In this document: one piece after another, positions 39,957 through 41,896 of the stretch
Layout: every line of letters starts with the position of its first letter
Numbering within the stretch: the stretch's first letter is position 1
From: Flavobacterium sp. 140616W15
GTDB lineage: Bacteria > Bacteroidota > Bacteroidia > Flavobacteriales > Flavobacteriaceae
Assembly (NCBI RefSeq): GCF_003668995.1
Contig: NZ_CP033068.1
Span: 372,001-436,000, forward strand
DNA length: 64,000 nucleotides
Direction of reading: 5' to 3'
The notes under the pieces: model-generated
The model's input: only the letters and a program-made list of their open reading frames with translations
Databases searched by the model: none
What the model was told of the DNA's origin: nothing
Made by a program: the position numbers and the translations under genes

Positions 39957-41896
39957 ATGAGCGAAGAAATCAAGAAGAACAATTATTCAGCAGATAGTAT
40001 TCAGGCATTAGAAGGAATGGAGCATGTAAGAATGCGTCCATCGATGTATATTGGAGATGTGGGTGTTCGAGGACTGCATCATTTGGTTTATGAAGTTGTG
40101 GATAACTCTATCGATGAGGCCATGGGAGGATATTGTGATACTATTAGTGTAGCAATAAACGAAGATGGATCAGTAACTGTAGAAGATAATGGTCGTGGTA
40201 TCCCAGTAGATTTACATAAAAAAGAAGGAGTTTCAGCATTAGAGGTTGTAATGACCAAAATTGGTGCTGGAGGTAAATTTGATAAAGACTCGTATAAGGT
40301 TTCTGGAGGTTTGCACGGAGTTGGGGTTTCGGTAGTAAATGCACTATCGGTTCACATGAGGTCAACCGTTTTTAAAGATGGTAAGGTTTACGAGCAAGAA
40401 TACGAAAGAGGTAAAGCATTGTATCCTGTTAAGCAAATTGGTGAAACAGATAAAAGAGGTACACGTCAGACATTTTACCCAGATAATACTATTTTTACAC
40501 AGACAACAGAGTTCTCTTACGACACTTTGTCGGCTCGTATGCGTGAGTTATCTTATTTGAATAAAGGGATAACAATCACATTTACAGATAAAAGAGAGGT
40601 TGATGAAAAAGGAGAATTTAAAAGTGAAGTTTTTCATTCTGATGAAGGATTAAAAGAATACATTCGTTACCTAGACGGAAACCGTGAGCCGATTATCTCG
40701 CACGTTATCTCTATGGATCATGATAAAGGAGAAATTCCTGTAGAAGTAGCTTTGATTTATAATACAAGTTATACGGAGAATATTTTTTCTTATGTAAATA
40801 ATATTAATACACACGAAGGAGGTACACACCTGCAAGGTTTTAGAACTGGATTAACCAGATCGTTAAAGAAATATGCAGATGCTTCAGGAATGTTGGATAA
40901 ATTAAAATTCGATATTTCAGGAGATGACTTCCGTGAGGGACTTACCGCAATTATCTCTGTAAAAGTATCTGAGCCACAATTTGAAGGGCAAACAAAAACT
41001 AAACTAGGAAATAGAGAAGTTGTTTCGCCAGTGAGTCAGGCAGTGAGTGAGATGATTGAGAATTATTTGGAAGAAAATCCAAATGATGCTAGAATTATTG
41101 TTCAAAAAGTAATTCTTGCTGCTCAGGCACGTCACGCTGCTAAGAAAGCACGTGAAATGGTACAACGTAAAACCGTAATGGGTGGAGGCGGATTGCCAGG
41201 TAAATTATCTGATTGTTCAGAGCAAGATCCTGCACGTTGCGAAGTATATCTTGTCGAGGGAGATTCGGCGGGTGGAACTGCAAAACAAGGACGTGATCGT
41301 GCATTTCAGGCAATTTTACCATTACGTGGTAAGATTTTGAATGTTGAAAAAGCAATGCACCATAAAGTATTCGAAAACGAAGAGATTCGTAATATTTTTA
41401 CAGCTTTAGGAGTAACAGTTGGAACTGCTGAAGATAGTAAAGCATTAAACTTAGATAAACTTCGTTACCATAAAGTAATTATTATGTGTGATGCCGATGT
41501 CGATGGTAGCCACATTTCTACATTAATATTAACATTCTTCTTCCGTTTTATGAAAGAGCTAATAGAGGAAGGACACGTGTATATAGCTGCTCCACCTTTA
41601 TATTTGGTTAAAAAAGGAAATAAAAAGAATATGCTTGGAATGATGTTCAACGTGATCAAGCTAATGAAAGAATGGGTGGAAGCGCAGGAATTCAACGTTA
41701 TAAAGGTCTTGGGGAGATGAATGCTGAGCAATTGTGGGAAACTACAATGGATCCAAATTTCAGAACTTTGCGTCAAGTAAATATTGATAGTTTAGCAGAA
41801 GCAGATAGAGTTTTCTCTATGTTAATGGGGGATGAGGTTCCGCCACGTAGAGAATTTATTGAGAAGAATGCAGTTTATGCTAAAATTGATGCTTAA
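39957..41896 (+). CDS. gyrB: DNA gyrase subunit B (frameshifted as read)
   Basis: GyrB is the ATPase subunit of gyrase. The reading frame shows the GHKL ATPase ([47 protein letters not shown]), transducer and TOPRIM domain ([30 protein letters not shown]). After LVKKGNKKN the frame changes: the rest (from about 41631) is read in another frame. Adding one T so that AATATG becomes AATTATG restores [20 protein letters not shown] and continues [19 protein letters not shown] to the normal C-terminus, giving 646 residues, the family length. As written, the first frame ends at 41720 with a wrong tail. Since gyrB is essential I treat it as intact in the organism. Confidence 0.9.

Follow-up and report, generated by a model that had tools for sequence, protein, structure and literature searches.

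The gyrB gene in this Flavobacterium assembly is split between two reading frames, and on the sequence comparisons described here this break is almost certainly an error of the assembled consensus, with the gene intact in the living organism. The base that is missing from the assembly would accordingly be present in the cell. The genome is represented by a single contig of 4,935,222 bases, and the window, meaning the whole 64-kb stretch of DNA that was analysed, is part of it. The finding is most likely an ordinary one, an assembly artefact whose interest does not go beyond a warning: the break brings no news about gyrase, and users of the assembly should suspect that split genes or apparent pseudogenes in the window are sequencing errors, because ~7% of the testable genes in the sampled stretch (24/347) are frame-split.

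The split gyrB gene and its relatives

The gyrB gene starts at position 39957 on the + strand, and the listing of open reading frames has its frame closing early, at 41720, after 587 aa. The frame changes at ~41624-41627, with the shift at codons 557-558, and the C-terminal 90 residues lie in a different frame, at 41624-41893. In a profile search, the GyrB C-terminal domain (PF00986) was matched in a 90-aa open stretch that is in another frame than the 5' part, so PF00204 and PF00986 are both present but in two frames, and the assembled 587-aa frame is without the C-terminal domain. The features of the locus are given below, where P0001 is an intact GyrB from a public protein collection.

39957..41627, + strand: 5' part of gyrB, residues 1-557, in frame (PF00204 at genome 412647-413156, 203 bits; 557/557 identical to P0001)
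41622..41627, + strand: A run with its terminal G, the site of the frame loss, where relatives have one base more (DNA alignments; net gap of 1 modulo 3 in 108/108 aligned relatives)
41624..41893, + strand: 3' part of gyrB, residues 557-646, in the other frame, with the DNA_gyraseB_C domain (PF00986, 106.5 bits, 90-aa open frame; 90/90 identical to P0001)
41628..41720, + strand: out-of-register tail of the 587-aa frame (ORF 39957-41720), in all likelihood no genuine C-terminus

Both parts of the window's gene match a normal Flavobacterium DNA gyrase subunit B throughout, and the sole difference from such a protein is the frame change between them. The whole gyrB of a same-genus relative, genome G004, passes the GyrB model TIGR01059 when its sequence is used as the query (930 against a cut-off of 882), and the 5' and 3' parts in the window are 96% and 97% identical to this relative. 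Apart from the frame break, no further damage to gyrB was found when both parts were compared with P0001. For the 3' part considered as a separate gene, the region around the break holds three promoter-like matches, against 3.0 expected, and no terminator-like matches.

A contig scan with the 5' part of gyrB identified at least 564 contigs that encode a relative, and the best 80 of these 564 were analysed. As the first-pass annotation had proposed, the break was compared with gyrB of relatives, and in 80/80 of this best set the gene is in a single frame. The motifs [15 protein letters not shown] and PPRR.FI share one frame in all 80, at spacings of 207 and 144 bases, and a stretch of 135 codons separates DADVDG from the stop. 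For [17 protein letters not shown], the window has a spacing of 206 bases where each of these best 80 of 564 relatives has 207. The usual GyrB length is 646 aa, as found for the majority among 120 database proteins listed, and this figure, together with the constant 135 codons, agrees with the normal length of 646 residues that had been assumed when the split was first reported.

Loci from 29 more relatives were added to the best 80 to give an alignment set of 109, of which 108 could be aligned across the break (L113 gave no alignment), and in 108/108 of these the net gap relative to the window is 1 modulo 3. The length difference aligns either to the A run at 41622-41626 or to the G at 41627, where relatives have the run followed by GG; the alignments of the relatives do not fix the exact missing base. 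The protein reading conserved across the break is KKEYAW, and among the 108 relatives the KKE codons take the commonest form in 56, a synonymous form in 36, and fall outside the pattern used in 16. The nearest gyrB among the compared loci is that of Flavobacterium hydatis, which is ~92% identical over 1945 aligned bases, and on this ground the genome is assigned to Flavobacterium. The one-base split that the first-pass annotation had described near 41630 is therefore borne out by the 206 versus 207 bases, but its site moves to the A run or the G at 41627. The suggested repair, insertion of a T near 41630, fails, since it gives KKNYAW where the relatives read KKEYAW.

An unbroken form of this very protein exists in public data. 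By searching ~5.8 billion proteins and scoring only the 8000 candidates with the most common words, P0001 was found as an intact GyrB of 646 aa on two contigs that do not exceed 704,616 bases. Contigs of this size mean that P0001 does not lie on the 4,935,222-base contig analysed here. Given its identity to both parts of the window's gene, P0001 is, as far as sequence can tell, what an unbroken gyrB of the strain or species would be expected to encode. Its origin may be a different assembly of the same organism or another strain, and it may not be independent of the present assembly.

In the proposed course of events, a homopolymer would have been under-counted in sequencing or in consensus calling, and the consensus would in this way have lost one base in or beside the A run. 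The lost base would then shift the frame at codons 557-558 and leave the 587-aa frame without its C-terminal domain.

Frame breaks over 666 kb of the assembly

To place the gyrB break in context, a 645-kb contig of G004, which is largely collinear (in inverted orientation) with 666 kb of this assembly, served as the reference. There were 501 non-overlapping G004 ORFs of at least 100 aa, 347 of which were testable by having a best piece with at least 65% identity and at least 60% coverage. In this assembly, 24/347 testable genes are frame-split, a rate of ~7% that applies to 666 kb of 4.9 Mb and to one reference contig. In the reverse control, 554 ORFs yielded 359 testable genes, and 2/359 were flagged (Fisher p 3e-6 for 24/347 against 2/359). 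Both of these flags are produced by the present assembly's own truncated gyrB and groEL ORFs, with tails out of frame, and neither reflects a break in G004. An earlier count on 444 kb, which is contained within the 666-kb count, gave 14/246 split genes and 1/253 in reverse. The warning that other indels of this assembly deserve distrust, which accompanied the first report of the split, is thus well founded.

The junctions of the 24 flagged genes were sorted by eye. Clean one-base deficits in homopolymer runs of at least 4 account for 14/24 (13 of them in runs of at least 5), and the remaining flagged genes comprise three one-base deficits in runs of 1-2, two that combine further gaps with a deficit in an A run of 6, one with a surplus base, and four with several gaps. 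Among the 18 single-gap junctions there are 17 deficits and one surplus; the test of deficits versus surpluses used 14 versus 1, without three further single deficits. Runs of at least 5 hold ~5.4% of G004 ORF bases, and the concentration of deficits in such runs has p 4e-11, a rough value given the sorting by eye. Some of the flagged genes that are not clean cases, at 60-75% identity, may represent true divergence or real pseudogenes. The genome completeness score of 99.96% counts against a consensus error.

Ten of the 24 flagged genes were run against NCBIfam, nine as G004 sequences, with the aconitase represented by the main piece found in this assembly. A curated cut-off was passed by five of the ten: gyrB, rpoC, groEL, alaS and a bifunctional aconitase. 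Four of the other five fell below the cut-offs (including one ABC ATPase, for which 25 of 75 families were listed), and one was without a match at 1e-20. The positions of the split genes other than gyrB that passed are as follows.

G000:C1:44130-45754: groEL, split by a one-base deficit
G000:C1:118881-121516: alaS, split by a one-base deficit
G000:C1:204844-209150: rpoC, split by a one-base deficit
G000:C1:219022-221822: aconitase gene, split by a one-base deficit

No second groEL was found, since PF00118 has just two matches in the genome, both of them pieces of this gene, and no second rpoC was found, the N-terminal domain PF04997 having one match in the genome. A cell could not be expected to survive breaks in gyrB, rpoC, groEL and alaS together, and because all four are broken in the assembly, a common technical cause appears far likelier than several real lesions. 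The pattern fits a consensus error, in that the break is absent from the relatives compared, many unrelated genes are broken here and none truly so in the control assembly, and the breaks are enriched in homopolymers with deletions prevailing. The preference for a consensus error, already expressed in the first-pass annotation, is strengthened by the 24/347 versus 2/359 split genes, by the breakage of other normally essential genes and by the existence elsewhere of an intact, identical GyrB.

A comparable situation is described in passages of a report on a nanopore assembly, where indels were mainly false deletions linked to homopolymers, A and T being the commonest, and where a figure of 23.3% pseudogenes is quoted (PMC12007338). 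What the present assembly shares with the long-read homopolymer deletion errors in those passages is one-base deficits, mainly in A/T runs of 4-8, that fragment many genes. The quoted rate of 23.3% pseudogenes is higher than 24/347, although the two figures were not measured alike (PMC12007338).

Biological alternatives to a consensus error

Jointly, all of the explanations that accept the deletion as real are very unlikely. One of them, itself highly improbable, is that the deletion exists but the cell bypasses it and makes some full-length GyrB, through either -1 ribosomal frameshifting at the lysine codons or slippage of RNA polymerase along the A run. A one-base step back at AAA-AAG would yield exactly the conserved KKEYAW, as this explanation needs, but the break is found in 0/80 relatives (best 80 of 564), so that the frame change is not conserved, and the A run is only 5 long, whereas slippage is best known on longer runs. 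Programmed -1 frameshifting of the dnaX type combines a slippery heptamer, X_XXY_YYZ, with a stimulatory downstream structure. The heptamer in the gyrB frame is T_AAA_AAG, which lies outside that pattern, and no stimulatory structure was detected in the 93 nt from 41628, whose pseudoknot-free folding is not better than that of shuffled sequences (z 0.23). Bypass would also have to contend with the similar breaks flagged in two dozen unrelated genes over the 666 kb compared, and with a genome that, at 4.9 Mb, is not reduced. Passages of a study of insect symbionts state that homopolymer slippage may correct some genes of these bacteria; tracts of at least 9 were counted there, and no minimum is set in those passages (PMC3017870). 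The symbionts described in them share with the present case indels in A/T runs within genes that are otherwise conserved and in some cases essential, but they are AT-biased and obligate, with many coding polyA tracts of at least 9, whereas here there is a run of 5 in a 4.9-Mb Flavobacterium, and unlike the symbiont cases in these passages the present break is shared by 0/80 relatives (best 80 of 564) (PMC3017870). A broader form of this proposal, in which the short run is real, full-length GyrB is made only via a one-base slip back at AAA-AAG, and similar slippage rescues rpoC, groEL and others, is extremely doubtful; if true, it would mean a 4.9 Mb Flavobacterium with loose frame keeping.

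It is equally hard to credit that a real deletion was carried by only part of the cultured population and captured by the consensus call. Homopolymer contractions are common mutations, which would favour such an event, but the deletion would kill the cell or come close to doing so, and the like would need to be true of rpoC, groEL and alaS. The chance that gyrB is a true pseudogene whose work is done by another type II topoisomerase is close to negligible. A spare gyrB was not found among the PF00204 and PF00986 matches, which occur at two places each in the genome, namely gyrB and one other locus; the second intact copy that the first-pass annotation had named as evidence against its reading is therefore not among them. 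A candidate for the replacement would be the second PF00204 protein, a 630-aa open frame at genome 649296, but this copy is a weaker match with a lower score than gyrB, and it is presumably ParE. ParE normally has a separate task of its own. The lack of other damage in gyrB likewise speaks against a pseudogene.

Other open reading frames in the window and in G004

A second frame break inside the window lies at ~57725, in a gene at 57558-59713 where an A run lacks one base. The relative of this gene in G004 encodes 719 aa and resembles OmpA/PorE-like families below their cut-offs. Two minus-strand ORFs, 34920-35435 and 35356-35814, were also considered as one split gene, which seems unlikely since one has an EVE domain and the other a polyketide cyclase domain; the ORFs in 34920-35814 are probably overlapping neighbours. 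In G004, a 479-aa ORF (L163:83-1519) has a match to a type VII CRISPR Cas14 model that stays under the cut-off (385.7 versus 800 bits) and one to a beta-CASP ribonuclease model, likewise under its cut-off, and its product is probably an ordinary MBL-fold nuclease.
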